Shown piece after piece: positions 32,315 through 52,705 of a DNA stretch of 64,000 bases. Positions within the stretch are counted from its first letter, which is position 1. Every line of letters begins with the position of its first letter. Source of the DNA: Methylocystis sp. IM3 (GTDB lineage Bacteria; Pseudomonadota; Alphaproteobacteria; Rhizobiales; Beijerinckiaceae); the NCBI RefSeq assembly GCF_038070105.1, contig NZ_JBBPBZ010000002.1:1170501-1234500 (forward strand), in the 5' to 3' direction. The translations under genes and the position numbers were made by a program. The notes under the pieces are model-generated. The model saw nothing but the letters and a program-made list of their open reading frames with translations, was not told the DNA's origin and made no database searches.

Positions 32315-32486
32315 GCGTGCAGGCGCGAGAAGCGCGCAGGAGTTCGTCGCCCCAGCCCTTGCCTCTTTCCGGCGGGCTTCCAGCTGGCCGGCCGGCGCAA
32401 TCCCTGCGCAATCCACGTGGCGTTAAAGGAGCGAGGGCTTTGCGCCATCCATTGCAAAGCAAATGTTCTTGCCCGAGGAAAACGCC

Positions 32487-34034: not shown

Positions 34035-34293
34035 TGCAGTAACAGACCAAAATAGATCAGGCGCGCCGAAATCTAAGCTTCGCTTAACCCCCGGCGGCTA
34101 TAAGGTGACGATGTCGGGATTGGCGCCTGAGAGGCGGCCAAAGGCATGAAGCCGCGACCGACATGCCGGTACGATCCGGAATTCCCCCTCGCATCAATGA
34201 GCGCCTCCTCGAGGCAGGTTTTTCAGACACGCCGGCAATTCTGCCGGCGTCGCATCGACCTGCATGGCTTCATCGGTTTCGTAAGAGGAAATA

Positions 34294-35757: not shown

Positions 35758-35759
35758 AG

Positions 35760-36233: not shown

Positions 36234-36271
36234 GCGCAAGGAACGAAACCACGCAAACGACGGAGGAGGAG

Positions 36272-36577: not shown

Positions 36578-36939
36578 GCAAGAAAATTCTTACCGTCGAT
36601 GATTCCAAGACGATGCGCCAGATGCTCGAAGTAGCGCTTACCGCCGCAGGTTTTGAGGTTGTGCAGGCAGGTGACGGCGTCGAAGGTCTCGAAACGCTCG
36701 AGTTGACGACGCCCGATGTCATCGTGACCGATATCAACATGCCGCGTATGGATGGGTTCGGCTTCATCGAAGGTGTGCGCACGAGCGAGCGTCACCGAGC
36801 GATTCCAATTCTCGTCCTGACAACAGAAAGCGACGACGAGAAGAAGGAGCGCGCCCGCAGAGCCGGCGCCACAGGTTGGATCGTGAAGCCTTTCGATCCG
36901 GCCAAGCTGGTTAGCGCCATCAAGCGCGTGAGCGCCTAA
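36574..36939 (+). CDS. cheY1: single-domain response regulator CheY1 (system 1)
   Basis: This 121-residue receiver has the phospho-acceptor Asp53 in VTDINMP, the acidic pair Asp9-Asp10 in TVDDSKTMR, Thr83-Thr84 in VLTTES, and Lys105 in IVKPFDP. It overlaps cheS as ATGA and precedes cheA by 17 bp. In S. meliloti the CheY encoded at this place acts as a phosphate sink rather than the motor effector; that role is inferred here from position. Confidence 0.93.
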   Translation: MSKKILTVDDSKTMRQMLEVALTAAGFEVVQAGDGVEGLETLELTTPDVIVTDINMPRMDGFGFIEGVRTSERHRAIPILVLTTESDDEKKERARRAGATGWIVKPFDPAKLVSAIKRVSA

Positions 36940-36956
36940 GCCAGCGGGAGGCAGTT

Positions 36957-39119
36957 TTGGATCATTTGGAAGCAATCAAGCAGACTTTCTTCCAGGAGTG
37001 TGAGGAGCAGCTTGCCGAACTCGAGAGCGGCCTCATCGCCATCGAAGACGGCAACCATCATCCCGAGATCATCAATGCGGTCTTCAGAGCCGTTCATTCG
37101 ATCAAGGGTGGCGCAGCGGCGTTTGGATACGACGAACTCGTGGAGTTCGTGCATGTATTCGAAACAACTCTCGATCTCCTTCGATCCGAAGCTCTCACGC
37201 CGACCCCCGCTACAACCAAGGTCCTTCTGCATTCCTCGGATGTGTTGTCCGATCTGATTCGAGCGATTCGAAACGATACATCATGGGACGCGGATCAGGT
37301 CGCTTCCGCGAAGGCCAGCCTAGATGCGGTATGCGCCGAACCGAAGCAGGGTAAAGCTACTGCCGACGCCGCGTCCCAGAACGATGCAAGCCAAATCAAC
37401 TTCGAGCCCGTCGCCATATCGCTCGATGCCATATTCGGCGACGATGGAGACATTGCCGCGCCGAGGGCGAACCAGTTCTCGGTCTCATTTCGTCCGAAGC
37501 CGACCCTTTACGCCCGCGCAAATGAGGCGCTGAGAATATTACGGGAGATCAAGGCGCTCGGCGAAGCGAGCGTTTCGTGTGACTGCTCGGAGTTGCCACT
37601 CCTGACGGAGCTTGACGCCGAAGGGGCCTATTTCTCCTGGACGGTAAGCCTGGAAACAGAGGCGTCGGCCGCCGACATCGAACAAATATTCGATTTCGTG
37701 TCGGCTGATTGCGATTACTCGGTAAATCCCGGTCACCCGGTTGAGACGGAAAAGGGGCTTGTCGAAAAGACAATAGAGCAGGCGCCGCCCTCGCCCTCGC
37801 TCATTGAAGATCACACTGAGCAGCCAAAGCTCCCGGAGCCGAAGGTTACGACACCCGATCCGACTCCGCCCCAAGGTAAACAAGGGTTTGAACAAGCTCC
37901 GCCGCAACCCGTACAGGAGACGATACGCGTCGATCTCGACAAGATCGACCGCCTTGTCAATCTCGTTGGTGAACTTGTCATCAATCAGGCAGTGTTGTCG
38001 CAACGGGTTTCCGAGGCGGGTCTCCCCCGCGGCTCTTCTGTGATGATCGGGCTGGAGGAACTCGAGCAGCTCACCCGCGACATTCAAGACAGCGTGATGG
38101 CGATAAGGGCGCAGCCGGTGAAGCCCATCTTCCAGCGCATGTCGCGAATAGTGCGCGAAGTCGCCGCTATCACCAAAAAATCCGTGCGCCTTGTCGTCGA
38201 CGGCGAAGGAACGGAAGTAGACAAGACGGTCGTCGAAAGATTGACAGATCCGTTGACGCATATGGTCCGCAACGCTGTCGATCACGGGATCGAGGGGCCC
38301 GAGGAGCGCATCGCGGCTGGTAAGCCGGAGGAGGGGACATTGCGCCTCTCGGCCATGCACCGCTCCGGACGCATCATAATCGAGGTTACAGACGACGGCG
38401 CTGGCATCAATCGCATGCGCGTTCGTGAGATTGCTGTCAGGAAGGGGTTGATATCGGAAAACGCCGTGCTGTCCGACGAGGAGACGGACGCGCTGATTTT
38501 CCTTCCGGGGTTCTCGACGAACCAGACCGCGTCCAGCATTTCTAGCCGAGGGGTCGGCATGGATGTCGTTAAGCGCGCAATTCAGGCGCTGGGCGGGCGT
38601 ATCTCGATTTCATCGAGACAGGGAAACGGATCGACTTTCTCGATGAGCCTTCCGCTGACACTGGCGGTTCTCGACGGAATGGTGGTGAACGTTGCGGGTC
38701 AGATCCTCGTTTTGCCATTGACGGCCGTCATCGAAACGCTGCAGCCGAGGCCGCAGAATATCCACCTCCTGAGTTCCGGCGTCCGTGTCATTGGCAATCG
38801 CAGTAGCTTCATCCCGCTCATAGATGTGGGGATGATCCTCTCCTACAGATTTCAGGAGATCGATCCAACGACCCAGGTTGCGCTCCTCGTCGAGTCCGAG
38901 AGCGGTGAGAAATGCGCGCTTCTGGTCGACGCCATACAAGGGCAGCGGCAGGTCGTGATCAAAAGCCTGGAAGCCAATTATGGAAAAGTGCCGGGCATCG
39001 CGGCAGCGACGATACTTGGTGACGGGCGGGTTGCGCTGATCGTAGACGTCGACGCTGTGCTGAGCCTTTCCCGTGGGGATTACTGTCAGATAAGCGAAGC
39101 GACGATTGAGACAGTTTGA
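36957..39119 (+). CDS. cheA: chemotaxis histidine kinase CheA (system 1, full length)
   Basis: CheA is the kinase that phosphorylates CheY and CheB in response to receptors. The 720-residue protein has the complete domain set. P1 HPt has His47 in FRAVHSIKGGAAAFG. A P2-like domain spans about 180-260 and a Pro-rich linker 270-315. P3 dimerisation starts near 320 (DKIDRLVNLVGELVINQA). The P4 kinase has N box HMVRNAVDHG near 434, G1 DDGAGIN near 478, F box FLPGFSTNQ and G2 SRGVGMDVVK. The P5 CheW-like domain starts at about 572. The TTG at 36957 is preceded by GGGAGG. It is followed 3 bp later by cheR. This kinase should act on its own, unlike the two CheA proteins of system 2. Confidence 0.97.
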   Translation: MDHLEAIKQTFFQECEEQLAELESGLIAIEDGNHHPEIINAVFRAVHSIKGGAAAFGYDELVEFVHVFETTLDLLRSEALTPTPATTKVLLHSSDVLSDLIRAIRNDTSWDADQVASAKASLDAVCAEPKQGKATADAASQNDASQINFEPVAISLDAIFGDDGDIAAPRANQFSVSFRPKPTLYARANEALRILREIKALGEASVSCDCSELPLLTELDAEGAYFSWTVSLETEASAADIEQIFDFVSADCDYSVNPGHPVETEKGLVEKTIEQAPPSPSLIEDHTEQPKLPEPKVTTPDPTPPQGKQGFEQAPPQPVQETIRVDLDKIDRLVNLVGELVINQAVLSQRVSEAGLPRGSSVMIGLEELEQLTRDIQDSVMAIRAQPVKPIFQRMSRIVREVAAITKKSVRLVVDGEGTEVDKTVVERLTDPLTHMVRNAVDHGIEGPEERIAAGKPEEGTLRLSAMHRSGRIIIEVTDDGAGINRMRVREIAVRKGLISENAVLSDEETDALIFLPGFSTNQTASSISSRGVGMDVVKRAIQALGGRISISSRQGNGSTFSMSLPLTLAVLDGMVVNVAGQILVLPLTAVIETLQPRPQNIHLLSSGVRVIGNRSSFIPLIDVGMILSYRFQEIDPTTQVALLVESESGEKCALLVDAIQGQRQVVIKSLEANYGKVPGIAAATILGDGRVALIVDVDAVLSLSRGDYCQISEATIETV

Positions 39120-39122
39120 CAA

Positions 39123-40025
39123 GTGGATAAAGGCCTATTGGAGCGAGATCGGATGCAGACGGTGGCCAGGCCGAGTCAGGCCGACATCATGACGGTTTTC
39201 AAATACACGGACGGAGATTTCCGGCAAATTTCACGCATTTTAAACGCAGAGGCGGGCATTTATCTTTCTGAGGCGAAGGCGCCGTTTGTGTACTCGCGAC
39301 TGACAAAGCGCCTCCGCGCGCTCGGCATGGACAGCTTCGAGCAGTATTGTTCCCTGATCGCAAGCGCGTCAGGTGAGAGAGAACGCCATCAGATGATCGC
39401 CGCGCTGACGACGAATGTGACGCGCTTTTTTCGCGAGGAGCATCATTTCGCGGATTTGAAGAGGAACTTGATCGAACGGCTCGGCTCGCAGGCGCGCGCT
39501 GGACGCCGCGTAAGAATCTGGTCAGCTGCTTGCTCGAATGGCCAGGAAGCCTACTCGATCACGATGACAGTTTTTTCGGTCCTGCCAGATGCTGACGATT
39601 TCAATATTCGCGTGCTGGGAACCGATATCGACGACTATATGATTCAAGCTGCAGTGGACGGTGAATATGCAGAAGACGCTGTCGCCGCGGTTCCCGAAGA
39701 CCTGCGCCGGAAGTGGTTTTCCGCGACCGGAGAGGGCATGTGGAAGGTCGACCAGAGGCTTTCATCCCTCGTGGCGTTCCGAAAGCTCAATCTGATCGGT
39801 CCGTGGCCAATGAAAGGGAAATTTGACGCAATTTTTTGTCGGAACGTCGCGATCTATTTCGAGGAAAAGACCCAGCAGGAAATATGGCGTCGCTTCGTCC
39901 CAATGCTCAATCCCGGCGGCGTTCTCTATATCGGGCATTCTGAGCGTGTGACAGGGCCCGCCGCAAGCTTGCTGACCAATGATGGCGTGACAACCTATCG
40001 GCTCCCGGAAGGAGATGCCCGGTGA
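39123..40025 (+). CDS. cheR: chemotaxis methyltransferase CheR (system 1)
   Basis: CheR methylates receptor glutamates with S-adenosylmethionine during adaptation. The 300-residue protein has the helical N-terminal domain (about 25-95), [14 protein letters not shown], the SAM-binding [14 protein letters not shown] (the usual ACSTGEEPYS slightly altered), LGTDID, and [13 protein letters not shown]. The GTG at 39123 is listed; an ATG at 39153 (MQTVARP) would remove 10 residues and is equally plausible. The stop overlaps the cheB start as GTGA. The NWEEF receptor in this operon is its likely docking partner. Confidence 0.95.
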
Positions 40026-41062
40026 AGTCTTGCAATGTTCTCGTCGTGGACGACTCGCGCACAATGCGATCGTTGATCGCGTCGACGCTTTCCGCCGATC
40101 CGGACATAAGAGTTATCGGAGAGGCAGGGGATGCATTTGAGGCGCGTGACGCGATCAAGGAGCTCAGCCCGGATGTCGTGACGCTCGACATCGAGATGCC
40201 GCGGATGAACGGGCTCGACTTTCTCGAACGGATCATGCGTTTGCGGCCGACGCCTGTTATCGTGATTTCCAGTTTGACAGAGCGCGGAACCGACACGAGC
40301 ATCCGGGCGCTCGAGATCGGCGCAGTCGATTGCATTGCAAAGCCATCACCGAGAAACAAGGATTCGCTCGAAGATCTTGGCGCGCGGGTTAAGGCCGCCG
40401 CGGGAGCGCATCTGCGCCGGTTGCGGCCAGCCGCGGAGTCTATGGCCGCGCGTATTCTTCCAGGCAGCCAATATTTATCCGACGGGCGCGTCGCCGCCAT
40501 CGGGGCGTCTATGGGCGGAGTCGAGGCGCTGTGCACATTATTGTCGCGATTTCCCGCGAATTGCCCGCCAATCGTCGTAACGCAGCACATGCCTGCCGTC
40601 TTCACCAAAAGCTTCGCGGACAGGCTCGACCGGTTGTGCCCTGCAAAGGTGATGGAAGCGACAGACGGGGAAACCCTGGCTCCTGGTCATGTCTATATCG
40701 CGCCCGGCGGCGCCAGGCATTTGGTGATCCTCGGAGCGGACCGTCCGAGATGCCGCCTGCAGGAAGGAGATCTCGTGTCCGGCCATCGTCCATCGGTCGA
40801 TGCGCTGTTCCAGTCTGTCGCGCGCTCGCTCGGGCCGAAAGCGGTCGGCGTGATTTTGACCGGAATGGGGAAGGACGGCGCACAAGGATTGCTCAGCCTG
40901 CGACAAAGCGGCGCGGAAACGCTCGGGCAGGACGAGGCGACCTCGCTCGTCTACGGGATGCCGCGAGCAGCCTTTGAACTTGGTGGCGTGTGCCAGCAAC
41001 TTCCACTCGGCGCGATTGCGGATCGCATCCTGACAATGACGAACAAAACCAGGCTGAGGTAA
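40022..41062 (+). CDS. cheB: protein-glutamate methylesterase CheB (system 1)
   Basis: CheB removes methyl groups from receptors and is activated by phosphorylation from CheA. The 346-residue protein has a receiver domain with Asp56 in TLDIEMP. A linker and the methylesterase domain follow, with the catalytic triad Ser163 (GASMGGVEA), His189 (TQHMPAVFT) and Asp285 (GMGKDGAQG). The GTG at 40022 overlaps the cheR stop. It is followed 2 bp later by cheY2. All catalytic residues are intact. Confidence 0.96.
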
Positions 41063-41064
41063 AA

Positions 41065-41451
41065 ATGAGTATAGCAGATCAACTTCGGGTGCTGATCGTC
41101 GACGACACCAGCACGAGTCGCCTCTTGCTGCGTGATGCACTCGATCAAATAGGCGTGCATAAAGTCTTTTTCGCAACCGATGGCGAGAAGGCGCTGAAAT
41201 TCATGATGGACACGCCGGCCCATCTCGTCATTTCGGACGTCAACATGCCCGTTATGGATGGGATGGGACTGCTGAAGGCGATCAGAGGATACAAACCGAC
41301 GCAGCGTGTGCCATTCATCGTTCTTACCGGACAGGCGGACAAGGCGATCATCGAAACCGCGGCGAAACTTGGCGTGAACAATTACCTTGTCAAACCAATT
41401 ACGGCCTCGAAGCTCAAAACCGCGATCGAAGCTATTTTCGGGAAGCTTTGA
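41065..41451 (+). CDS. cheY2: single-domain response regulator CheY2 (system 1)
   Basis: This 128-residue receiver has Asp58 in ISDVNMP, the acidic pair in IVDDTSTSR, Thr in IVLTGQ, and Lys in LVKPITA. It sits between cheB and cheD, the place of the motor-binding CheY2 in S. meliloti. The ATG at 41065 follows TGAGGTAAAA 2 bp after the cheB stop. Its stop shares a base with the cheD start (TGATG). Confidence 0.93.
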
Positions 41452-41996
41452 TGGGGCAGCCTTCCAATCAGCCTCGGAAAATACATCTCATTCAGGGCGA
41501 ATATCAGGTCGTCTCTGAGCCCAATGTCGTTCTCTCGACGATTCTCGGATCTTGCGTCGCGGCCTGCCTGAGAGATCCGGCCGCGGGGGTGGGCGGGATG
41601 AATCACTTCCTCCTCCCTGGCGGCGATGCATCTCGCAGGCAGGAAGCGGACCGATACGGCGCTTACCTGATGGAGTTGCTCATCAACGGCCTTTTGAAAC
41701 GCGGCGCAAGGCGTGAACGCATCGAAGCGAAACTTTTCGGCGGCGCGCGCATGCTCGAGGGGCTGTCGGATATTGGAGCACAAAATTCCGCCTTTGCGAG
41801 AGAATTTCTCGCAAATGAGGGAATACGCGTCCTCGCTGAAAATCTCGGCGGTACGCACGGGCGCAGGCTGGAATTTTTCCCTGTCTCGGGGCGGGCGCGG
41901 CAGATCCTTTTGCCGCAAAGTTCGAACGTCATCGAGAAGTCTCTAGTGAAAGGGGACTCGAAGACCGAGAACTATGGCACGCTGGAGCTGTTTTAG
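41451..41996 (+). CDS. cheD: chemoreceptor glutamine deamidase CheD
   Basis: CheD deamidates receptor glutamines and can modulate adaptation. The 181-residue protein has the catalytic Cys35 in LGSCVAACL, His52 in GGMNHFLLP, and the conserved KLFGGARML block. The C-terminal half is normal. The ATG at 41451 shares a base with the cheY2 stop; a TTG immediately before it is less likely. Order and overlap put it in the same operon as system 1. Confidence 0.95.
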
Positions 41997-42044: not shown

Positions 42045-42404
42045 ATGAGCGAAATACAAGCGAGGCCGTTGGGAGAGGTGCTTGTTCGTATCGGCGCGGA
42101 GCTCGAGGTTGCGGCCGGATCCGTCGAAGACCTTCATGCGCTCGTGGAAGCATCTGTCAAGAACGGAGCCACCACAGACATCTTCCTGCAACAGGCGCAA
42201 ACAATCGACATCTTACAGCAACACCTGTTCGCGCTAGCGGGTTTCGTAAATCAGGTGTCGGAGGCGATTCCACCGTCCTGGAGAATTGAGAGCGATGAGG
42301 CGATGAGGAATCTGAAGCTCTCCCGTCTTAGGGACCGTCTGGACCGGATGTGCAGCGGCGAATCGGCGGAGCAACAGATCTCGGGCGAGTTGCACATGTT
42401 TTGA
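42045..42404 (+). CDS. cheT: CheT-like putative CheY phosphatase
   Basis: This 119-residue all-helical protein is encoded directly after cheD. In the second helix, residues Asp55 and Gln59 in TIDILQQH form a D-x3-Q motif, the catalytic signature of CheZ-type CheY-phosphate phosphatases. S. meliloti has a protein of similar size, CheT, at the same operon position, described as CheZ-like with such a motif. The call rests on position, size and the motif; I cannot align it to CheT here. The ATG at 42045 follows GAGAAAG. It ends system 1; a 262-bp non-coding space follows. Confidence 0.6.
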   Translation: MSEIQARPLGEVLVRIGAELEVAAGSVEDLHALVEASVKNGATTDIFLQQAQTIDILQQHLFALAGFVNQVSEAIPPSWRIESDEAMRNLKLSRLRDRLDRMCSGESAEQQISGELHMF

Positions 42405-42666: not shown

Positions 42667-43863
42667 GTGTCTTCAGCAAGAGAAGCTTCTGCGGCGACCA
42701 CAAGCCAATTGCGCGTGTCTGCGCAAAAAGTCAGTCGCCTCATGGACCTTGTGGGCGAACTCAGCCTGAGCGTCTCTGACACAATTCACAGTTCCGACCT
42801 ATCCGATCTCGATCTGACGAATTTCGAGAAATCAGCTCATCGCCTCAAGCTGGTCCTGCGCGAGGTACAGGAGGCGGCTGCCGAACTCCGCCTCGTGCCT
42901 ATTGGGGACGTTTTTCAGCGTATGGGTCGGTTGGTGCGCGAACTTGAGCGCCAAACCGGAAAGGAGGTCGATCTCGAGGTTCATGGCGAGGAGACTGAAA
43001 TAGACAAAATTGTTGTCGACCAGCTCTTCGAGCCGCTCGTTCATGTCGTACGTAACTGCGTGGATCATGGGCTAGAGCCCCCCGACGAACGCATTACCAA
43101 CGGAAAGCGTCGCCGAGGGAAGATCGCGCTTTCGGCGGCTCAGGTAGGCGGGGACATTCAAATAACGATCGCCGACGATGGGCGTGGTCTCAACAGGGCC
43201 AAGATACTGAAGCGCGGACGTGAAGGAGGATTGATCGGTTCGGACGAGGAACCGGACGATCGGGACCTCTGGCAAATCATATTCAAGCCTGGATTTTCAA
43301 CCGCCGAGGCTGTGACCAACCTGTCGGGACGTGGGGTTGGGATGGATGTGCTCGATAATACCATCAAGCGACTGCGGGGTCGTATCCTCGTCGATAGCGT
43401 CTGGGGCTCGGGAACAAGGGTTATCCTCTCCATTCCGCTCTCCCTGGCTTTCATTGATAGTCTTGTGATGCGGGTTGGCGAACGATTGTTCGCGACGCCT
43501 ATTACCGCTGTTGCAGAGATTTTCAGGCCTGTCGCCGAGCAATTGACTGTCATGACAGCTGATGGCGGGGGAGAGTTGGTGAAGGTCAGAGAGGCGCTCG
43601 TGCCGATTTGCCGTCTCGAGCGTTTCTACGGCGAGGCCCATGAATCGGACATGCTCGTCAACAAGATCATCCTGGTTTTCCAGACAAGCCAGGGAAAAAT
43701 CGGGGTGCCTGTCGACGAGCTCTTCGATCAGCAGCAGATCGTGATGAAACCTCTCCAGGGGCATCTGGAGAGAATAAGGGCAAGTTTCGGTTGTGCTCTA
43801 CTCGGCACTGGTGAAGTCGCCATGATGCTCGATAGTGAGAAGCTCACGGAAATCGTGCTGTGA
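42667..43863 (+). CDS. CheA kinase lacking HPt and P2 domains (CheA4-type, system 2)
   Basis: This 398-residue kinase begins directly with the P3 dimerisation domain (SAQKVSRLMDLVGELSLSV at 18-36). P4 is intact, with N box HVVRNCVDHGLE (Asn130), G1 ADDGRGLN (169-176), F box FKPGFST and G2 SGRGVGMDVLD (220-230). A P5 domain spans about 262-395. There is no phosphorylatable His domain, so it cannot autophosphorylate in the normal way and must phosphorylate another protein's HPt. Rhodobacter sphaeroides CheA4 has the same architecture and phosphorylates CheA3. The GTG at 42667 follows AAGGGAAG, and the upstream frame offers no HPt, so the short form is genuine. It overlaps cheR as GTGA. The likely partner is the 1012-residue protein at 49064. 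Confidence 0.93.
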   Translation: MSSAREASAATTSQLRVSAQKVSRLMDLVGELSLSVSDTIHSSDLSDLDLTNFEKSAHRLKLVLREVQEAAAELRLVPIGDVFQRMGRLVRELERQTGKEVDLEVHGEETEIDKIVVDQLFEPLVHVVRNCVDHGLEPPDERITNGKRRRGKIALSAAQVGGDIQITIADDGRGLNRAKILKRGREGGLIGSDEEPDDRDLWQIIFKPGFSTAEAVTNLSGRGVGMDVLDNTIKRLRGRILVDSVWGSGTRVILSIPLSLAFIDSLVMRVGERLFATPITAVAEIFRPVAEQLTVMTADGGGELVKVREALVPICRLERFYGEAHESDMLVNKIILVFQTSQGKIGVPVDELFDQQQIVMKPLQGHLERIRASFGCALLGTGEVAMMLDSEKLTEIVL

Positions 43864-44696
43864 CAGTAGACGCCTGCAAAGCGCTCGCCGTAGCGAATGA
43901 CGGTCTCGATGCAAATCGACGCCTTGAGGCATGGCTGCATGATCGTTGCGGTCTTCATTTCGGCGAGGCTGATCTTGGGCTCATGGGACAGCGGCTCGCC
44001 CGGGTCGTGGAACAGTTCGGTTTGCAAGGTCTCGGCGAACTAGCTCGGGAAATCGAACGCGACAAAAACCATGAACTGACAGCGGCTGTTGTGCATGCCG
44101 CATCGACGAACCACACGTATTTCTTTCGAGAGATGGATACGCTCGACTTCTATCGGCGCCATCTGTTCGACCTTGCGAAAAGCCAGGGAGAAATTCGAGT
44201 TTGGAGCGCCGCGACATCGACGGGAGACGAGGCCTATACATGCGCAATCATTGCTGTCGAGGCCCTCGGGCTGGAAGAGGCCCAGGAACGGGTGAAGATA
44301 CTTGGGACTGACATTAGCGCGCCCGTCATCGAGACGGCGGAGCTGGGGATCTATCGCAGACCGAACCTAGAATACACCCCCGATCATCTGAGGCCGCGAT
44401 TCTTCCGGCCACTGGCCGACGGGCGAGTGGCGGTGTCGGACGATATCAAGAGGATGTGCACGTTTCGACGCATGAATTTGAAGCATCGTCCCTATCCCTT
44501 CCAGAAGAAGTTCGACATCGTCTTGTGTCGCAACGTTCTCTACTATTTCCGGATACCGACCCAGAGGGAGGTCTTGCATTCGGTTCATGAAGTCGTTCAG
44601 CCAGGCGGCATCCTGCTGACAGATGTTAGTTTCACCCTGCGCGATCTTCGGGTTCCCTGGAACACGGTCCGTAGCGGGGCGCACAGGAAAATATGA
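43860..44696 (+). CDS. cheR: chemotaxis methyltransferase CheR (system 2)
   Basis: This 278-residue CheR has an N-terminal helical domain, then STNHTYFFREMDTLDF, the SAM-binding VWSAATSTGDEAYT, LGTDISAPVIE, and FDIVLCRNVLYYF. It diverges clearly from the system 1 CheR. The GTG at 43860 overlaps the cheA stop, and its own stop overlaps the cheB start as ATGA, so translation is coupled. The probable substrate is the soluble receptor encoded two genes downstream. Confidence 0.94.
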   Translation: MTVDACKALAVANDGLDANRRLEAWLHDRCGLHFGEADLGLMGQRLARVVEQFGLQGLGELAREIERDKNHELTAAVVHAASTNHTYFFREMDTLDFYRRHLFDLAKSQGEIRVWSAATSTGDEAYTCAIIAVEALGLEEAQERVKILGTDISAPVIETAELGIYRRPNLEYTPDHLRPRFFRPLADGRVAVSDDIKRMCTFRRMNLKHRPYPFQKKFDIVLCRNVLYYFRIPTQREVLHSVHEVVQPGGILLTDVSFTLRDLRVPWNTVRSGAHRKI

Positions 44697-45754
44697 TGAA
44701 CGCGCTTCCGAATCGACCCGTGAGGGTTCTGGTCATCGACGACTCGGCACTCGTGAGAAAAGTTCTCGCCGACGGCTTGTCGCGAGACCCCGAGATCGAG
44801 GTTGTCGGGCAGGCAAATGACCCCTATCGCGCGCGAGATTTGCTGGTGGACCTGAGGCCAGACGTTGTGACTCTCGATGTAGAGATGCCGCGCATGGATG
44901 GTGTGACATTTCTGAAGCAATATATGCGCGCCATTCCGACGCCGACAGTGATGATCAGCTCCTTTACTCAACAGGGAAAGGGCGTGACGCTCGAGGCGCT
45001 CGCCGCCGGCGCCGTTGATGCGATCGCAAAACCCAGCATCGGGTTGGTGGACCAGTTACCAAACATGTTGAGCGACATTTGTCGTCGGGTGAAGGACGCA
45101 GCGCGAGTGGACGTGTCGCGTTTTGGGCGCATCAGATTACGGCCGTTGGAAAAGGTCGCGCCGGTGGTCGAGGCGGCTTGCCCGAAACTAATTGCGATTG
45201 GCGCTTCGACAGGAGGCGTAGAGGCGCTCAGCCACATCATGCCAGCTTTTCCCGCGAATAGCTCGGGCATCGTTGTGGTTCAACATATGCCTGCCGGGGT
45301 CACGTCGAAATTCGCGGAGCGCCTCAATGGCATGTCCGCAATGCGCGTGAAGGAGGCGGAGGATGGCGAACGCGTATGTAAAGGGCTTGTCCTCGTCGCG
45401 CCCGGCGGGGCCAAGCACATGACGGTCGTTCGGTCGGGGTGTGATTATCGGATCGTTCTTGTCGATGGGCCCGAAGTGAATTTCTCGCGTCCGGCAGTTG
45501 ACGTGCTTTTCAATTCTGTCGCCCAGGCCGCAGGGCGTCATGCCGCTGCGGCGTTGTTGACAGGCATGGGTCGTGACGGGGCGGAGGGGTTACTTGCAAT
45601 CCGAAACGCGGGCGGGAGAACCTTCGTACAGGATGAGGAAACCTCGGTGGTCTATGGCATGCCCAAGGCGGCGAGCGACTTGGGGGCGGCCGAGGCGGTG
45701 GTTGCTTTGCAGAAAATTCCAGGTTTGCTCACAAGAGCGATCAAACGAGACTAA
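44693..45754 (+). CDS. cheB: protein-glutamate methylesterase CheB (system 2)
   Basis: This 353-residue protein has a receiver domain with Asp62 in TLDVEMP. The methylesterase domain has GASTGGVEALS (Ser), VVQHMPAGVTSKFAERL (His) and GMGRDGAEG (Asp). The triad is complete. The ATG at 44693 overlaps the cheR stop; a second ATG at 44696 is equally good. It ends 15 bp before cheW. Confidence 0.96.
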   Translation: MMNALPNRPVRVLVIDDSALVRKVLADGLSRDPEIEVVGQANDPYRARDLLVDLRPDVVTLDVEMPRMDGVTFLKQYMRAIPTPTVMISSFTQQGKGVTLEALAAGAVDAIAKPSIGLVDQLPNMLSDICRRVKDAARVDVSRFGRIRLRPLEKVAPVVEAACPKLIAIGASTGGVEALSHIMPAFPANSSGIVVVQHMPAGVTSKFAERLNGMSAMRVKEAEDGERVCKGLVLVAPGGAKHMTVVRSGCDYRIVLVDGPEVNFSRPAVDVLFNSVAQAAGRHAAAALLTGMGRDGAEGLLAIRNAGGRTFVQDEETSVVYGMPKAASDLGAAEAVVALQKIPGLLTRAIKRD

Positions 45755-45769
45755 AGATGGAGAATGTCG

Positions 45770-46327
45770 ATGGCTGAAGCTTCCACGGGAGATGCAACCG
45801 CAGGTAATTCGCCCGAGCGCGCAATGGAAAGCGACTCTGCGGAATTGATCTTCAACGACGAAAATAACATAGACGATATGTACCTCACTTTCGGCGTATC
45901 CGGCGAGGAATATGGTCTCGGGATCGCTTTTGTGACTGAGATCGTTGGCATGCAAAAAGTCATGCCGGTGCCGGATGTTCCCGCCTTCATCAAGGGTGTA
46001 ATCAATCTGCGCTGCAAGGTCATCCCTGTGATGGATGTTCGGCGGCGTTTTGATATGGACGAGAAGCCATATACGGAACGCACTGTCATTATCGTACTGG
46101 ACGTGAGCGCCGTTCCGATTGGCCTTGTCGTCGACAATGTCAGCGACGTGCTGGAAATCCCCCCCTCGCAAATCGACCCGGCGCCGAAGTTCGGATCAGG
46201 ACGTTCGCATGACAGTCTGATCAGGGGACTCGGTAAATCCGGCGACCGGGTTGCGGTGATCCTGGATATTCGACGGCTCGTCGGGGAAGGTCACGGGGAC
46301 GCCGGGGAGGGAGCGTCCCTGCAATGA
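45770..46327 (+). CDS. cheW: chemotaxis coupling protein CheW (system 2)
   Basis: This 185-residue CheW has an acidic N-terminal extension of about 40 residues. The domain itself shows [45 protein letters not shown], and [13 protein letters not shown]. The ATG at 45770 has GGAG at a good 7-base spacing; the ATG at 45764 is too close. The stop overlaps the receptor start as ATGA. It is expected to couple the soluble receptor to the P5 domains of both CheA proteins of system 2. Confidence 0.94.
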
Positions 46328-48552
46328 CGCCAGATGAAATCAGAGATTCGATCGACGATCAGAACCAGCCTTTTGAGCGGGCGGAGGAGGCCCCTCCGCC
46401 GGATGAACCCGCCGCTCCTGAGGGCGAAGGTGGTTGTGAGGCTCCCATAAGCGTTTCGGGCTCCGTGGCCCGATTTCAGTCAAGTGAAGAGAAGGAACTC
46501 ATCATGTCAAATGCAGACAACAATCAGGCTGTCAGGGAAATTCTGCGCGCGATTCGCGCGCTGAAGAACAGCGACTTCAGCGTTCGCGCCGATTCCTCGT
46601 CGGCGAGCGGCGAGTGGGCTGAGGTCATCGGAGAGCTGAACGCGGCCCTCGATACAGCAGGTCCCGATATTACGCAGACTCAGCGTATCCGTCAGGCGCT
46701 CGACAATGCGAGCGACTCGTTGATGATCGCGGACGCTGACTGCCGTATTTTTTACGCCAATCGATCGGTTCTCGACATGCTGGCGGCGGCCGAGGCGGAT
46801 GTCCGCAAGGACTTGCCCAACTTCAGCGCCAGCAAGATTTTGGGCTCCAATATCGACATCTTTCACAAGAACCCTGCGCATCAACGGCGGCTTCTCGATA
46901 ATCTGACGTCGATTTACAATACGCAAATCAGCGTCGGCGGCCGGAGTTTTGCGCTCAAGGCCTCTCCGATCTTCGACAAGAACGGCAAGAAGGTCGCGAT
47001 CTCCGTCGAATGGATCGACAAGACGAGCGAGAAACGTATCGAGAAGGAAATCGTCGTCGCCATCGACGCGGCGGGCCGTGGCGATTTTTCGCGGCGTGTG
47101 GATATGAGCGGCGCGGAAGGCGTCTTCAAGCTTCTCGGTGAGAGCATCAACCGGCTCATCGAACTCACAGGCAGTGCGCTTGTAATAATTGGGGGGGGCC
47201 TTAACCGGGTAGCGAAGGGAGATCTTACAAAGGGAGCAGAGACGGCGTTGGAGGGAGCGTTCGGTTCTCTTCAGAATGATGCCGAGCAGGTTCGCGTCAG
47301 TCTCATGTCCATGGTGGAGGACGTGAATAGGCTGGCGAGAGCGGGCGCCGAGGGTCGCCTTCAGGAGCGCGCCGACGCAAGGCGCCATCAGGGCGATTTC
47401 CAGAAAATCGTCGAGGGGATCAACGAGACGCTCGATGCGCTTGTCGATCCGATCAAGAATATCGCCAAGGCAGTCGAAGCTCTTGGGCGAAACGATGTCG
47501 GCGTTACGCTCGAAGGCGACTTCCGCGGGGATTTCCTGGCGGTCAAGAATGCTTTCGACGCGGCGATGGCCGGGATCAACAATACGCTCTACAGGATCGT
47601 TGACTCGGTGGAACAGGTCGGTATTTCGGCCGATCAGCTGAACTCCGCCTCTCAGAACATGGCTTCTGTATCTGAGGAGCAGGCCGCGGCGGTTCAGGAG
47701 GTGACGTCGAGTGTGACGGAGACCAATACGCAGGTTCAGGCGAACACCGAGAACGCGAATTCGGCGAACCAGCTCGTGATCAGCGCCTCCCAGGCCGCCA
47801 ATCAGGGGCAGGCGAAGATGGAGGACATGAACGAAGCGATGAACGCGATCAGCGCCTCGGCCCAGAGCATTGGCAAGATCATCAAGGTCATCGACGAGAT
47901 TGCTTTCCAGACGAATCTCCTTGCGCTCAACGCCGCTGTCGAGGCGGCGCGGGCAGGACAGCATGGGCGAGGGTTCGCCGTTGTCGCTCAGGAGGTGAGG
48001 AACCTCGCCGGGCGCAGCGCGAAGGCGGCGCGTGAAACGGCCGAGATGATCGAAGATTCGGTCAAGCGCGTGAACGAAGGCGTCGCCATCGCCAAGGAAA
48101 CCCGCGAAGCGCTGGATCAGATTGTCACCAATGTGGTGAGGGTCAAGGATCTGGTGGCTGAGATCGCGGTTGCGAGCGCCGAACAGTCGCGAGGCATATC
48201 GCAGATCAATGTTGCGATGAATCAGGTCAGCAAGGCTTCGCAGGAAGGCAGCCAGCAGGCGGAAGAGCTCGCCGCATCTTCCTCCGAATTGAGCAAGCTC
48301 GCCGAGTCGATGAGCGAAAGCGTGCGTCGCTTCAAGCTGCGTGAGCGGGCTTCGGCGGGTGCGCTGGGTCTACCGGGGCTCAACGGGATGACTGCTGAAA
48401 TGGTCGAGCAGCTGAAGGCTCTCCTGGGAAATCAACAGCGGGCCGATGTCGCCGCGCCGGCGAAGGTTGCGGCTGCGGGGGGAAGGCCGAGAAAGAATGC
48501 GAGCGCGATCATTCCGCTGGACCAGGATGAGCGGGGCTTCGGCGGGTTCTGA
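46324..48552 (+). CDS. soluble PAS-containing methyl-accepting chemotaxis protein (TlpT-like position)
   Basis: This 742-residue receptor has no membrane helix. The order is a disordered acidic, Pro-rich N-terminus (1-60), a PAS domain at about 120-235 ([20 protein letters not shown]), several HAMP-like helical segments to about 440, and a signalling domain. The tip is [20 protein letters not shown] near 520, with ENANSANQ and [11 protein letters not shown] methylation-type helices. The C-terminus ends in DERGFGGF and lacks the W-x-x-F tether. The first ATG overlaps cheW as ATGA; an ATG at 46504 after AGAAGGAACTC is a strong alternative and would remove the acidic leader. A run of eight G lies at 47191-47198 (residues about 290). 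It occupies the place of the cytoplasmic receptor TlpT in R. sphaeroides. Confidence 0.93.
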
Positions 48553-48611
48553 AGGCCATCAATACGCAGCCGGGCGGGGCGCCCGGCTCACTGCGAGAGC
48601 AGGAGAGATCG

Positions 48612-49013
48612 ATGCATAAGGTGATGGTTGTGGACGATTCCGCAATGATGCGGGTCGTGATCTCCAACTTCGTCTCGTCCCTTCCCGACTTCAAGGTTGT
48701 GACCTCGGCGGAGAATGGCAAGGCGGCGCTGGAACAGCTCGCGAAATTCCCGGATCTCAATCTGATCCTTCTCGATATCGAGATGCCAGGGATGAACGGG
48801 CTCGAGTTTTTGCGGCACGCCAAGATGAAGACGAGGGCGAAGGTGGTGATCCTGTCCTCCGTCGCGTCGGCAGGGTCGAAACAAGCATCGGAAGCGCGGT
48901 CGCTCGGGGCGGACGCGATCATCACGAAGCCGTCCGGCGCCGTTTCCATGGATCTGGCGGACAAACGCGGCGCGGAGCTTGCCCGCGTGATGTCGCTCGT
49001 GCTCGCCGCCTGA
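48612..49013 (+). CDS. cheY: single-domain response regulator (CheY6-like position, system 2)
   Basis: This 133-residue receiver has Asp55 in LLDIEMP, the acidic pair in VVDDSAMMR, Ser-Ser in ILSSVAS, and Lys in ITKPSGAVS. The KPSG ending and the IEMPGMNGLEFL segment are CheB-like, so it looks like a receiver domain derived from CheB, as in several alphaproteobacterial CheY6-type regulators. CAGGAGAG lies before the ATG at 48612. It lies between the soluble receptor and the HPt-bearing CheA, and is the likely phosphate acceptor of that protein. Confidence 0.92.
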   Translation: MHKVMVVDDSAMMRVVISNFVSSLPDFKVVTSAENGKAALEQLAKFPDLNLILLDIEMPGMNGLEFLRHAKMKTRAKVVILSSVASAGSKQASEARSLGADAIITKPSGAVSMDLADKRGAELARVMSLVLAA

Positions 49014-49063
49014 TCTGGCCGCAGGGGTTTTCCAGCATAATACAGTCGAGGGAGATAGCCGCT

Positions 49064-52000
49064 TTGTCCGAAGATATTGACGAAATCTGGGCGTTGTACG
49101 CCGACGATGGCGCCCAGTCGCTCGATACGGTCGAAGCGGCGCTCCTCAGATTGAGGGGCGACCACCGAGACGGCGAGGCGATTGCAGAGCTTTTCCGGGC
49201 GATGCACACGTTCAAGGGAAATTCCAGGTTAATCGGTCTCGTCAGGATCGAGACCTGCGCGCATCTTGCGGAGGACCTCATCGGTCTCGTCCGCGACGAA
49301 GGCGTGCAGATGGACGCAGAGCTGCTTGATCTCCTTCTGGAAGCAGGCGATCGTCTGCGGGAGATGATGGAAAGCGCAGTTGTGTCTCGCAGGGATCCGG
49401 AGGAGTCGGTCAGCGAGTCGATCTGCGCGCGAATGAAAAGCAAGTATTCCGCGCTACGTGGGGAAGGGGATGGGCGGGAGGCGGCTGAGGCGCCGGCTCT
49501 CGCACCAGCCGGGACGCCCGAGAACCAGGTCGAGAACGAGACGTTCGAGACGGCTGTACTCTTCGGACCTCCGCAAGACAATCTCGCAAAGGATCCGCTC
49601 TACCTGAAAATCTTTCTCGAAATGGCGCGCGACGCAATCACGAGGATCGCTCTCACGTTGCAATCGCGTGAGGAGGACGGAGAGGCGCGCGGGGAGTCGA
49701 TTCGCAACGCGGCCGGCCTTCTCAGCGAAGCGGCCGGTCGTATCGGCTTCGTAGAATGGCAGGAGCTCGCTGACGCCTTTTCGAGAGAGGCGGCGAATGA
49801 GAACCGCCTAGCGGCGCTTCTAGAGCAGGCGGAAGAGCTCTACCAACGTAGCGGAGGCGAGAGGGAGGCGCAGCAGGGATCGCCTGCGCCGGCGCCGGAC
49901 CAGCCCTATGACGCGGGGGCGTTTCTGAAGGAAATCGCGCCCCATCTCGACAGTCTCTGCAAGACGGTGACGGAGGGTGAAACACTCGAGAAATGCGACA
50001 TCGCCGATTTTTGCGATCCCATCAAAAGGGCTGCGTCGCGGCTTGGTTATATTCGCATCGTGGAGACCGTCGCCGCGCTGCCGTCTTCTCTGCGCGACGC
50101 CATACGGTTCGAAACGCTTCTGTTTCGCCTTTATGAAGATCTCTCGCTGATCCGGGAAGTCGAAATCGGCGGCGCCGACTCGGTGGCGATCGAACGGGCT
50201 TCGCGCCTTCTCGAGACTTGGTACTCCACCCATTTGCCGGCGGCGCTTTCGGACCTTGCCGAGGCTCTCCATGGGCAGGCGGATGAGATTGACTGGAACA
50301 GGGTCGTCGCCTGCCAGGAGCGCATTCATCGGGCCTGCCGCTGTCTGAAACTCGATACGCCGGGGCGGGTCGCGGTCGCCTTGCTCGACCTTGCCGCTCG
50401 CGTCGCTTCCGGCGAAATCCCGCCGGATCCGCTACTGCTGAGCACAATGAAGTCCTTCAACGAGGCCGCCAGATCGGCGGTGAACTCCGCGAGCGACGAG
50501 GCGATGAGGCGCCTGCTTGGCGAGACCGCGGAGGTGACGGAGGCCTTGAGCGGCGCGGCGCCGGTGCGTTCGATCGAGCATCTGCTTCATTTGCCGGCAA
50601 GTTTCCAGGGGGTCCTGTCGCCAGAAAGCGCGCGGTCGGCGGCGGAGCGGTTGGCCTCCGGCGACCGATTCTACATCATCCGCGCGGACATCGATCCGCA
50701 GCCCGAACTCGCGAACAAGTTCTTTGACTGGACGAATGCGAGCGGCAAGATCATCGGCTGCGTGACGGTCCCTGCGGATCGGCCCATTTTCGACTTTCTC
50801 ATCGCCGCACCGCTCGAGTCGGACGGCATTTCCACAGAGCTCCTGCAACTCGATCCTGACGGCGAGGCCCTTCGCGTCATAGACGAGATCAATCATGCGG
50901 CGGTAGGAATGGGGCCGCATGGCGAGGGAACCGGGGTCGAGAGATTCGACGCGGAAGCGGACAAGTCGTCCGCCTCTTCGACTGAAATGCTCGAAACGAT
51001 CGACGAAATCGTAACCGGGCACGGCGCGATGCGCGAGATCATCTCGAGCTTCGACAAGACGCGGGTGCTGGGAGTGTTCGACGCCGCGATGGCGGACGGC
51101 GGTTCGAATTGGACCAAGGCGCGCGAAACCGTTCATCGACAGTTGCAGGACTGGCAAGAGGACGTCGACCGGCTCCTGCAACTCGAGAAACAGCTGGAAA
51201 AGCGGCTGCGTCAGCTTCAGGAGGATACGGTCGGGGCCCGGATGCGGTCCGCTTCTCCGCTGCTGCAATATCTCGTCGATTACGCGGCTGCTGGAGCCCA
51301 GCGTCATGGGCGCGCGCTACGTTTCGCACCCTTCAATCAGAACGAACCCATCGACGCCGATCTCCTGGATCTGCTCTCGGACCCGATGCGGTCGCTGATC
51401 TCGATTTCGATCGCACATAGCATCGAGCCTCCGGCGGCGCGCGTCGGGAAGGGGAAGGCGGCCGAAGCCGAGATGCGGCTTGGCGTCATGCGTTTTCTGG
51501 ACCGGGTGGTGGCGACGGTCGAAGATGACGGCGCTGGCCTCGAGGCGCAGGGCGCCGGCACGGCCGTGGATGCGGTGCGCGCATCCATGCGCAGCCGAGG
51601 GGGCGACGTCGTGGTCGGCGCATCTCAGTCCGGTGGGTTGCGCGTCGATGTCATTCTGCCTTTGTCCATGTCCGTGCTGGCGGGCATGATCGTGCGCGCC
51701 GGCGCGGTCATGTATATCGTTCCACTCCACTCGATTCAGCGGATCGTGCACTCGGGAGGCAGAGACCTCGTCTATCTGTCGGCGGGCAGCCGCACGATCA
51801 ACCTCAAACTCGGTCCGGACAGGCTGGTTCCGATCCGTTTCCTCTCGGATAGTTCCGAGACCCGGGCGCATCTCCTGGCGCCGGGGGGCAGGACCGAGGA
51901 CGAGAGATATCTCTTTGTTATCGCGGAAGCGGAGTCCACCCATTTCGCATTGTCCATCGACGAGGTGGTCGGCGAGCAGCTGGTGATCGTGCGGCCGATG

Positions 52001-52102
52001 AAAGGCTATCTGTCCGCGATCCGAAACGTGATGGGCTGCGCTCTGCTCGCCAATGGCGAAATCGGGATGGTGCTCGATATGGCGTCCATCGGGGCGGACT
52101 GA
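49064..52102 (+). CDS. HPt-bearing, kinase-dead CheA with extra domains (CheA3-type, system 2)
   Basis: This 1012-residue protein has an HPt domain with His48 in LFRAMHTFKGNSRLIGL. A second HPt-like module at 176-245 (RNAAGLLSEAAGRIGF) has the His replaced, and a third at about 285-345 (DPIKRAASRLGY) is also without His. A helical region and a P2-like domain at 505-600 follow. A coiled coil with P3 remnant spans 685-745. A P4 remnant spans 750-868, with the N box read as MRSLISISIAHSIE, no F box, and the G2 loop replaced (AGTAVDAVRA). A normal P5 spans 868-1008. It therefore can be phosphorylated but cannot bind ATP normally. It should be the substrate of the 398-residue CheA, like R. sphaeroides CheA3, whose middle part is a CheY6 phosphatase. 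The TTG at 49064 has GGAGAT 8 bases upstream. Confidence 0.9.
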   Translation: MSEDIDEIWALYADDGAQSLDTVEAALLRLRGDHRDGEAIAELFRAMHTFKGNSRLIGLVRIETCAHLAEDLIGLVRDEGVQMDAELLDLLLEAGDRLREMMESAVVSRRDPEESVSESICARMKSKYSALRGEGDGREAAEAPALAPAGTPENQVENETFETAVLFGPPQDNLAKDPLYLKIFLEMARDAITRIALTLQSREEDGEARGESIRNAAGLLSEAAGRIGFVEWQELADAFSREAANENRLAALLEQAEELYQRSGGEREAQQGSPAPAPDQPYDAGAFLKEIAPHLDSLCKTVTEGETLEKCDIADFCDPIKRAASRLGYIRIVETVAALPSSLRDAIRFETLLFRLYEDLSLIREVEIGGADSVAIERASRLLETWYSTHLPAALSDLAEALHGQADEIDWNRVVACQERIHRACRCLKLDTPGRVAVALLDLAARVASGEIPPDPLLLSTMKSFNEAARSAVNSASDEAMRRLLGETAEVTEALSGAAPVRSIEHLLHLPASFQGVLSPESARSAAERLASGDRFYIIRADIDPQPELANKFFDWTNASGKIIGCVTVPADRPIFDFLIAAPLESDGISTELLQLDPDGEALRVIDEINHAAVGMGPHGEGTGVERFDAEADKSSASSTEMLETIDEIVTGHGAMREIISSFDKTRVLGVFDAAMADGGSNWTKARETVHRQLQDWQEDVDRLLQLEKQLEKRLRQLQEDTVGARMRSASPLLQYLVDYAAAGAQRHGRALRFAPFNQNEPIDADLLDLLSDPMRSLISISIAHSIEPPAARVGKGKAAEAEMRLGVMRFLDRVVATVEDDGAGLEAQGAGTAVDAVRASMRSRGGDVVVGASQSGGLRVDVILPLSMSVLAGMIVRAGAVMYIVPLHSIQRIVHSGGRDLVYLSAGSRTINLKLGPDRLVPIRFLSDSSETRAHLLAPGGRTEDERYLFVIAEAESTHFALSIDEVVGEQLVIVRPMKGYLSAIRNVMGCALLANGEIGMVLDMASIGAD

Positions 52103-52174: not shown

Positions 52175-52705
52175 TCACTGCTGCAATAGCCTGTCTATCC
52201 TGTGTAGCTGCGAGTGGTGTAGCAGCAATACCCTGTTGGAGGCGGCCAGGCGCTCCGCCGCTCGCGTGTAGCCGTTCGTCGCCACGACCACCCCCCTCTG
52301 GGCGTCTTCATGCGCGATGGCGGCTACAATTTCCTGAACCGCCCGGTTGCCCACAGGCTTCCGATATTTCTTGCACTGGACGACAATGCGCGCCCCACGT
52401 TTCTCTGCGACAATATCGACGCCCTGATCTCCGCTTGCCCGCGTGACGCGTGCGGCCCATCGGCTCTCCCTGAGCAGGGCGGCGCAGTAGTGCTCATATT
52501 CCTGCGGGGTCATATTAGCGTCAAAGTGCGCCTGGGCGATTTGCTCATATACGAGGACCGCCAGGTGGAGGAGGCCGAACAGGGCGAGGGCCATGAAGGC
52601 CAGTCCCGGCGCATTGGGCCAGTAGGGGCCCGCAAGACAGGCGAACAGGGCGATCCAAACGATCCATTTCGTCGCTGCGCGGTTTTGTCCTTGGTGGCGC
52701 GACAT
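52175..52705 (-). CDS. membrane-anchored Mrr-like restriction endonuclease domain protein
   Basis: This 176-residue protein has two hydrophobic helices at about 13-32 and 33-55. A linker follows (NMTPQEYEHYCAALLRESRW), then a PD-(D/E)xK nuclease domain of the Mrr_cat type: GDQGVDIVAEKRGARIVVQCKKY, with Asp, Gln-Cys-Lys-Lys as the catalytic core. It ends with VVVATNGYTRAAERLAA and a short helix. Family members cleave modified DNA or act in DNA metabolism; the membrane anchor is found in a known subgroup of unknown role. No methyltransferase is adjacent. It converges on the end of the chemotaxis cluster. Confidence 0.85.
   Translation of the reverse strand: MSRHQGQNRAATKWIVWIALFACLAGPYWPNAPGLAFMALALFGLLHLAVLVYEQIAQAHFDANMTPQEYEHYCAALLRESRWAARVTRASGDQGVDIVAEKRGARIVVQCKKYRKPVGNRAVQEIVAAIAHEDAQRGVVVATNGYTRAAERLAASNRVLLLHHSQLHRIDRLLQQ

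Follow-up and report, generated by a model that had tools for sequence, protein, structure and literature searches.

A 64,000-nucleotide stretch of DNA from the methanotroph Methylocystis sp. IM3 (GCF_038070105.1, contig NZ_JBBPBZ010000002.1, positions 1,170,501-1,234,500 of the forward strand; hereafter the window) carries a seven-gene chemotaxis operon that very probably encodes a split kinase of the type specified by cheOp3 of Rhodobacter (Cereibacter) sphaeroides. By analogy, a short CheA (CheA4) would phosphorylate a long CheA (CheA3) in trans, and the phosphate would pass to the receiver protein CheY6. This prediction follows from complementary losses in the two proteins, where CheA4 has no histidine phosphotransfer (HPt, or P1) domain and CheA3 has a dead P4 domain, combined with orthology and synteny. 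The operon contains a P1-less CheA with intact ATP boxes, a second CheA with the P1 His and a P5 domain and, judging by sequence, no working P4, a P1 orthologous to that of R. sphaeroides CheA3, a cognate CheY6, and the cheOp3 gene order. Judged from their sequences, neither CheA4 nor CheA3 appears to be an ordinary single-chain CheA, in which P1 and a working P4 occur together. The cheOp3 kind and the dead domains inside R. sphaeroides CheA3 are already known, and the window is a further case. In the open-licence literature, we found no earlier report of the wider spread of the pair, the kinship of CheA4 compared with that of ribosomal protein L2 (RplB), the unsplit relative, or the stages of P4 decay.

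Organization of the operon

The seven open reading frames (ORFs; Table 1) between 42667 and 52102 are all on the + strand and uninterrupted from start to stop, and neighbors overlap or are 9-59 bases apart. An earlier reading of the sequence alone had proposed the order cheA(398 aa)-cheR-cheB-cheW-soluble mcp-cheY-cheA(1012 aa), and every gene was recovered in its place. Most homologues of CheA3 begin with MS at the column of its TTG start. No membrane span was detected by hydropathy in the methyl-accepting chemotaxis protein (MCP), whose highest 19-residue Kyte-Doolittle mean is 1.29.

Genome contigs were scanned by two short peptide patterns, which will have missed divergent relatives. Eighty of 87 relatives were kept; six (L075-L080) are ordinary CheAs, leaving 74 loci. 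Among the 54 scan loci with cheA4, cheW, cheY6, and cheA3, 23 have exactly the window order and 14 have this order with a ParA-like gene added between cheW and mcp, which bears out the likeness to cheOp3 proposed in the sequence-only reading. A ParA-like gene with a Walker-A motif is present in 20 of these 54 loci and absent from 34.

CheA4 is a P3-P4-P5 protein with intact ATP boxes

The sequence-only reading had described the short CheA as P3-P4-P5 only and had named an HPt hit in a profile search as grounds for refutation. In a Pfam search, CheA4 matched H-kinase_dim (residues 13-71), HATPase_c (123-259; E 7e-15), and CheW (266-394), and no Hpt was found at E≤1. CheA4 also matched, over P3-P5, PDB entries that we take to be the E. 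coli and Thermotoga CheAs. The N, G1, F, and G2 boxes listed in that reading are all intact and near-invariant across an alignment of 55 rows (the window and 54 of the 74 relevant loci, where rows longer than 470 aa were left out, apart from L020, which was kept in trimmed form). P208 of the F box region is present in 51 of the 55 rows.

This conservation bears on a very unlikely alternative, in which CheA3 would be fed mainly by the ordinary CheA of a first chemotaxis cluster in the window (36957-39119), and CheA4 would be a structural or regulatory P3-P4-P5 protein. Consistent with such crosstalk, that cluster lies just upstream of the split-kinase operon, the translation of its CheA has the HPt His motif and all ATP boxes, and the genome has three CheAs only, with all five of its CheW-domain places inside the window. 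By contrast, near-invariant ATP boxes would be needless for a purely structural protein. Moreover, in the congener G238 the split operon is located in another neighborhood, and the 57.5 kb read there shares with the window region only the operon and an MCP signaling stretch.

CheA3 retains the phospho-acceptor His and has a degenerate P4 domain

Pfam matches in CheA3 were Hpt (residues 7-102; E 8e-15) and CheW (874-1009), and HATPase_c reached only E 0.08 (13.8 bits versus a cut-off of 26.4). Residues 3-129 match the P1 structure of R. sphaeroides CheA3 (3kyi; E 6e-37), and in an AlphaFold2 (AF2) model P1 matched 3kyi with a TM-score (TMt) of 0.94 and the C-terminal part matched the CheA P3-P5 structure 1b3q with a TMt of 0.61 (Foldseek). 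We aligned 189 CheA3 rows (the window, 69 loci, and 119 proteins, where sequences shorter than 780 aa were dropped and near copies are present). His48, which the long CheA had been said to keep, is present in all 186 of the 189 rows that are ungapped at this column.

In working kinases the N-box Asn binds Mg, and the first Asp of the G1 box contacts adenine in working CheAs. A profile alignment placed CheA3 residues 711-1011 onto CheA4 residues 60-395 (E 3.4e-42), such that N130 and D133 of CheA4 align with Ile781 and Ala784 of CheA3, respectively. The 42-residue stretch 176-217 of CheA4, containing the ATP lid and F box, has no counterpart in CheA3, the third G2 glycine is replaced by Ala834, and the G1 motif DDGAG is retained at residues 821-825. 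Thus, of the boxes that the sequence-only reading had considered lost, the N-box Asn and the F box are indeed missing, whereas G2 is only partly lost. That reading had also overlooked the surviving G1 motif, the Hpt-like, P2-like, and P3-like domains of CheA3, and the CheY6-P phosphatase role of R. sphaeroides CheA3.

The same pattern extends across the alignment. The N-box Asn occurs in 0 of the 189 rows, where its helix is gapped in 133 and another residue is present in 56. From G1 to the next GG, 37 rows have 40-69 residues and 152 rows have 10-29 (the window has 19), and a GxGxG-like string is kept in two rows (P0025 and P0043). In 82 non-redundant rows, the mean top-residue fraction was 0.41 in P4, 0.46 in P3 and in the middle, 0.54 in P5, and 0.71 in P1, and the columns conserved at ≥90% numbered 46 of 130 in P1, 5 of 105 in P3, and 7 of 136 in P4.

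The low conservation of P4, the lowest mean among the CheA3 domains, is what could be expected if the pair were a decaying duplicate and the split a stage of erosion toward loss. We find this explanation barely credible, given that all seven genes are open, P1 is strongly conserved, and the same split state is common to Methylocystis, gammaproteobacterial, and Rhodobacterales rows.

One feature of P4 stands apart from this low conservation: the first G1 Asp is retained in 186 of the 189 rows (79 of the 82 non-redundant rows) and is among the top two P4 positions by conservation, despite loss of the N-box Asn. This retention suggests a further idea, which we regard as quite unlikely, that CheA3 is a nucleotide-reading pseudokinase. 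In this view, ADP or ATP bound by the dead P4, with no phosphate transfer, would modulate the CheY6-P phosphatase and let the cytoplasmic cluster sense energy charge directly; the whole of CheA3 would have come from an unsplit multi-Hpt CheA of a kind found to this day, and CheA4 would have taken over catalysis.

The locus rows, sorted by title, further suggest stages in the decay of P4 (the 119 protein rows are mixed and lie outside this count). The N-box helix and the lid are both missing in 58 of 58 Rhodobacterales CheA3 rows, three of which are titled Alphaproteobacteria only and were placed by nesting in the tree. By contrast, the helix is present in all 12 other rows, the window among them, and a lid of at least 40 residues in 9; the window, L014, and L012 have the helix and no lid. 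From this distribution, we infer that the Asn was probably lost first, the lid next and more than once, and the helix last.

Predicted phosphate flow and CheY6 specificity

In R. sphaeroides, neither CheA3 nor CheA4 is described as autophosphorylating, whereas together they label CheA3 (PMC2817712, PMC3591291). CheA3-P serves CheY6 and CheB2 there, free CheA3 is described as the main CheY6-P phosphatase (PMC2817712, PMC2924250, PMC3591291), and the soluble receptor TlpT is described as interacting with CheA4, CheA3, and PpfA (PMC6829392). By analogy, CheA4 and CheA3 of the window would be anchored by their P5 domains, along with CheW, in an array formed by the soluble PAS/poly-HAMP receptor. 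CheA4 would use ATP to phosphorylate His48 of CheA3 in trans, CheA3-P would hand the phosphate to Asp55 of the neighboring CheY6, and CheY6 would target the flagellar switch. Phosphate would be stripped from CheY6-P by the middle of CheA3, with its Hpt-like and P2-like domains. A fliM gene was found in all 28 CheA3-bearing genome entries searched (27 genomes, since L014 is G212); the match in the IM3 genome is weak (E 4e-7).

The identity of CheY6 is supported by a match to the R. sphaeroides CheY6 structure 3kyj (E 9e-48) and by a specificity motif. The 3kyj match, like that of P1 to 3kyi, lies well outside chance expectation. Residues A12 and M13 of R. sphaeroides CheY6 are reported to set specificity for CheA3 (PMC2817712). 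They correspond to A11-M12 in the window, and the Met is present in 73 of 73 CheY6 rows of other loci (AM in 64, VM in 7, and MM in 2). The Met is absent from the two CheYs and the CheB of the first cluster.

Overall, the window shares with cheOp3 the domain partition, the gene order, the orthology of P1 and CheY6, the specificity Met, and a soluble receptor, and its CheA3 shares the degenerate P2, P3, and P4 domains and extra Hpt folds published for R. sphaeroides. Several features count against equivalence to the R. sphaeroides system. Unlike cheOp3, the operon contains no ppfA (ParA-like) gene; mcp begins at 46324, before the end of cheW at 46327. The soluble receptor is present and ppfA is absent; hence the operon is not classed as a PpfA-positioned cytoplasmic receptor cluster. 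In addition, the CheB of the operon reads DDSALVR compared to DDSAMMR in CheY6, and therefore has no counterpart of the specificity Met of R. sphaeroides CheB2; the CheB branch may differ accordingly. In other loci, AM is present in 32 of 59 CheB rows. Lastly, no phosphatase site was recognized among the conserved CheA3 columns. The window also differs from cheOp3 in the PAS/poly-HAMP composition of its receptor, and from all 58 Rhodobacterales locus rows in keeping the N-box helix of CheA3.

Split histidine kinases are predicted to be switch-like, even bistable, and R. sphaeroides is named as the biochemically characterized case (PMC3591291). The Methylocystis and gammaproteobacterial members, together with an unsplit relative that has ATP boxes (see below), would allow a comparative test of the effect of splitting. 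The same comparison could reveal the order of events in the death of the CheA3 kinase domain and the location of the phosphatase within CheA3.

Table 1. Genes of the split-kinase operon and features of its two CheA proteins (window coordinates)
Feature	Position	Strand	Basis or remark
cheA4-like: P3-P4-P5 CheA, 398 aa, no HPt	42667..43863	+	Pfam; PDB CheA P3-P5, E 9e-76
CheA4 N box VVRNCVDHG, residues 127-135	43045..43071	+	N130, D133, H134, G135 in 55/55
CheA4 G1 box IADDGRGLN, 168-176	43168..43194	+	D170, G174 in 55/55; D171, G172 in 54/55 each
CheA4 F box region IIFKPGFST, 204-212	43276..43302	+	F206, G209-T212 in 55/55
CheA4 G2 box SGRGVGMDV, 220-228	43324..43350	+	invariant, 55/55
cheR (cheR3-like)	43860..44696	+	Pfam CheR, E 8.5e-44
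cheB (cheB2-like)	44693..45754	+	Pfam
cheW (cheW4-like)	45764..46327	+	Pfam CheW, E 2.8e-36
Soluble MCP at the tlpT position: PAS, two HAMP_2 stretches, MCPsignal	46324..48552	+	Pfam, hydropathy
cheY6 orthologue, lone receiver	48612..49013	+	PDB 3kyj, E 9e-48; A11-M12 pair
cheA3 orthologue, 1012 aa, TTG start	49064..52102	+	Pfam; PDB 3kyi
CheA3 P1 (HPt)	49064..49453	+	Pfam, 3kyi
CheA3 phospho-acceptor His48 codon	49205-49207	+	
CheA3 173-274: helical, HPt-like fold, probable dead HPt	49580..49885	+	
CheA3 280-367: further helical stretch, assignment unsure	49901..50164	+	AF2
CheA3 374-496: P1 fold lacking a conserved His (dead HPt)	50183..50551	+	
CheA3 533-610: alpha/beta domain, P2-like	50660..50893	+	
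CheA3 626-726: P3-like long helices	50939..51241	+	AF2; Foldseek to 1b3q
CheA3 731-866: degenerate P4 that retains G1 DDGAG and has no N-box Asn or ATP lid/F box	51254..51661	+	
CheA3 P5 (CheW-like)	51662..52090	+	Pfam CheW, E 3e-7

Occurrence of the CheA3/CheA4 pair

By title, most of the 74 loci are from Rhodobacterales. Non-Rhodobacterales loci come from Hyphomicrobiales metagenome-assembled genomes (MAGs; L001, L014, and L039), Proteobacteria MAGs (L047 and L057), and a group of MAGs of low guanine-plus-cytosine (GC) content. RplB of the L002, L015, L046, L053, and L069 genomes groups with that of E. coli (support 100/98), and we therefore read these five as gammaproteobacterial. Misbinned contigs are an unlikely source of these five rows, because GC is similar at their che loci (38-42%) and RplB loci (40-42%), compared to 60-74% in nine alphaproteobacterial loci, and because matches were also obtained in seven additional genomes from the GTDB family to which L002 belongs. 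No RplB match was obtained in L030 or L062. L012, from a Chloroflexi MAG, is a CheA3/CheY6 pair on a contig of 4 kb; it may reflect contamination or transfer and was not used to judge spread, and its CheA3 also lacks the G1 Asp.

Within these lineages the pair is patchy. The search recovered full CheA3 from 4 of 39 genomes of the genus (two of one species), from 3 of 397 genomes of the order (G000, G238, and G212, the L014 genome), and from 14 of 237 genomes of the L002 family, where seven are genomes of the earlier scan loci and seven are additional, with CheA3 in two ORFs in G1185 and in pieces in G417. Some match was obtained in 154 of the 397 genomes of the order, the remainder matching P3-P5 as ordinary CheAs do. 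Searches of the class and the phylum with the CheA3 middle matched 3 of 385 and 4 of 398 genomes, all of them from the genus of the window or unsplit CheAs; these samples were spread over families and undersample Rhodobacteraceae. Wherever both genes were read, the same CheA4/CheA3 partition was present in Methylocystis echinoides, G238, the gammaproteobacterial methanotrophs, and Proteobacteria of mine-drainage type. In M. echinoides (G1123) the operon is in the same neighborhood as in the window, with both che clusters. Compared to the window, some gammaproteobacterial CheA3s contain extra tandem copies of the first Hpt-like domain, two in G418 and G404 and one in G414, G411, and G408.

PF02461 (methane/ammonia monooxygenase A) was found in 9 of 18 CheA3 genomes searched, namely the IM3 genome and G238 (two copies each), the L014 genome, and six of seven low-GC genomes. 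The two pmoA-type genes of IM3 (contig C2, 509411-510112 and 2065721-2066422) gave equal scores.

We found no report in the open-licence literature of the CheA3/CheA4 pair outside Rhodobacteraceae. The pair is described in R. sphaeroides and twenty other Rhodobacteraceae genomes, and its emergence is placed early in Rhodobacteraceae (PMC10782961). Hamer et al. (2010; PMC2829493) list four species that have a P3-P4-P5 CheA and mention a few further bacteria that have a P1-P5 protein, whose linker is shorter in all but Roseovarius. The patchy occurrence of the CheA3/CheA4 pair in Methylocystis and gammaproteobacterial methanotrophs calls the published dating into question, and an emergence early in Rhodobacteraceae looks too narrow.

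Two CheA3 genes are unusual in their middle region. The 792-aa CheA3 of a Hyphomicrobiales bog MAG (L039, 1691-4066) has a middle of 192 residues, compared to 436-615 in 27 other loci, and this natural deletion would be useful for locating the phosphatase. In G1185 (contig C76), the middle spans two ORFs (481 and 671 aa) that overlap, and a frameshift, an error, or a further split could account for this.

Origin and probable transfer of the operon

The CheA4 of the window resembles its gammaproteobacterial counterparts more than those of Rhodobacterales, whereas RplB shows the reverse. Identity to window CheA4 is 60.5-62.9% in three gammaproteobacterial rows and 53.3-58.4% in 12 Rhodobacterales rows, and it is 63.6-64.6% in L047 and L057. 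For RplB, identity is 59.0-60.4% to five gammaproteobacterial and 66.7-71.3% to seven Rhodobacterales proteins. Together with the patchy occurrence, this comparison makes horizontal transfer of the operon likely. The contrast is weak for CheY6 (63.2-65.4% to gammaproteobacterial versus 60.2-63.6% to Rhodobacterales rows). The tree alone does not demonstrate transfer, since an approximately unbiased (AU) test did not reject the alphaproteobacterial CheA4s as one clade (p-AU 0.2).

That AU result is in line with vertical inheritance since before the split of alpha- and gammaproteobacteria, followed by many losses, as is P1 of CheA3, which shows no closer kinship of the window to gammaproteobacterial rows (50.0-53.1% versus 51.5-56.9% for Rhodobacterales). 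We nevertheless consider such inheritance unlikely, given the sparse occurrence in the genus, the order, and the gammaproteobacterial family and the opposite identities of CheA4 and RplB.

It also seems doubtful that the split arose once within Rhodobacteraceae, as inferred in print, and then spread outward. This origin fits the published genomes (PMC10782961) and the predominance of Rhodobacterales titles in our scan, and in one CheA4 tree the Paracoccaceae rows L042 and L051 fall outside both main groups. In outgroup-rooted CheA4 trees, by contrast, the methanotroph and mine-drainage rows are not inside Rhodobacterales, and a 46-row Rhodobacterales clade (by title or nesting) stands beside them. 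In a careful CheA4 tree, all 13 sampled Rhodobacterales are on one side of a branch with 81/95 support, not starred. Moreover, loss of the N-box helix and lid in every Rhodobacterales CheA3 locus row makes the Rhodobacterales state look derived.

In a P3-P5 tree with 18 ordinary CheAs, where five CheA3 rows filled less than half of the columns, CheA3 formed one clade (100/100), CheA4 formed one clade (100/99), and the ordinary CheAs grouped together (82/85). This pattern gives moderate support to the CheA3 and CheA4 cores being nearest kin of each other among the rows used.

Unsplit multi-Hpt relatives

The weak class and phylum matches G458, G544, G985, and G814 initially resembled distant CheA3s and turned out to be unsplit, single-chain CheAs of 900-1073 aa with the middle, P3, P4, and P5; the G544 ORF as read begins inside P1. 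A family of 24 such proteins, one marked partial, aligns with CheA3 residues 1-1011 over 877 columns (E 2.7e-77), compared to 626 columns (E 7e-50) for ordinary CheAs. Like CheA3, the unsplit CheAs (L142-L145, L167, L168, and P0121-P0142) contain P1, Hpt-like, P2-like, P3, P4, and P5 domains in one chain; unlike CheA3, they have ATP boxes in the same protein, and the stretches read contain no CheA4 partner. Except for the fragment P0124, every member of the 24 shows N and G1 patterns (23 proteins); strict G2 and F-box patterns are present in 21 and 5, respectively, which implies a variant F box in most unsplit CheAs. G1330 and G1339 encode both a CheA3 and an unsplit CheA with all four patterns.

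The P1 domains of CheA3 and the unsplit CheAs group together against the 18 ordinary CheAs (100/97), and a fair reading is that the front two thirds of CheA3 and the unsplit CheAs probably share an ancestor. Kinase-core trees placed the unsplit cores apart from CheA4, and grouping was not rejected (p-AU 0.14 and 0.145); since these trees neither support nor reject it, an unsplit CheA is a candidate parent of the pair, not a proven one. We infer that the kinase of CheA3 itself died after CheA4 took over.

A CheY is encoded upstream of three of the four CheAs from the class and phylum searches; for the fourth, it lies downstream on the opposite strand. In five of six unsplit loci read it is just upstream. 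One of four such CheYs read has the CheY6-type Met (L143), and the others have FI, FV, and FI. The unsplit operons also encode a protein with three consecutive CheW domains (L142, 4550-5941, by Pfam; similar in L143 and L144).

Neighboring DNA and other chemotaxis genes

The first che cluster (window 32463-41996) encodes a protoglobin-MCP (PF11563), a second MCP, cheW, a STAS_2 protein, cheY, cheA, cheR, cheB, cheY, and cheD, as assigned by translation, with Pfam for the two MCPs, the STAS protein, and CheD. The globin domain of its receptor suggests that this cluster may sense oxygen. A 119-aa ORF between cheD and cheA4 (42045-42404) matched no Pfam family above cut-off; its position resembles that of cheT in rhizobial che operons.

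Outside the window, the only MCP signaling match in the genome (L112, 5506-7332, - strand; contig C2 near 333.8 kb) has HAMP and MCPsignal without the hairpin tip (model positions 62-107). R. sphaeroides TlpC is reported to have no glycine turn at its tip (PMC6829392).

Directly after cheA3, an Mrr-type restriction endonuclease is encoded on the - strand (52175-52705), and this DNA also matches beside cheA3 in M. echinoides. In 2-kb bins, GC is 56-64% across both che clusters (32000-54000) and 58-70% elsewhere in the window, where 13 of 21 bins are at least 64%.

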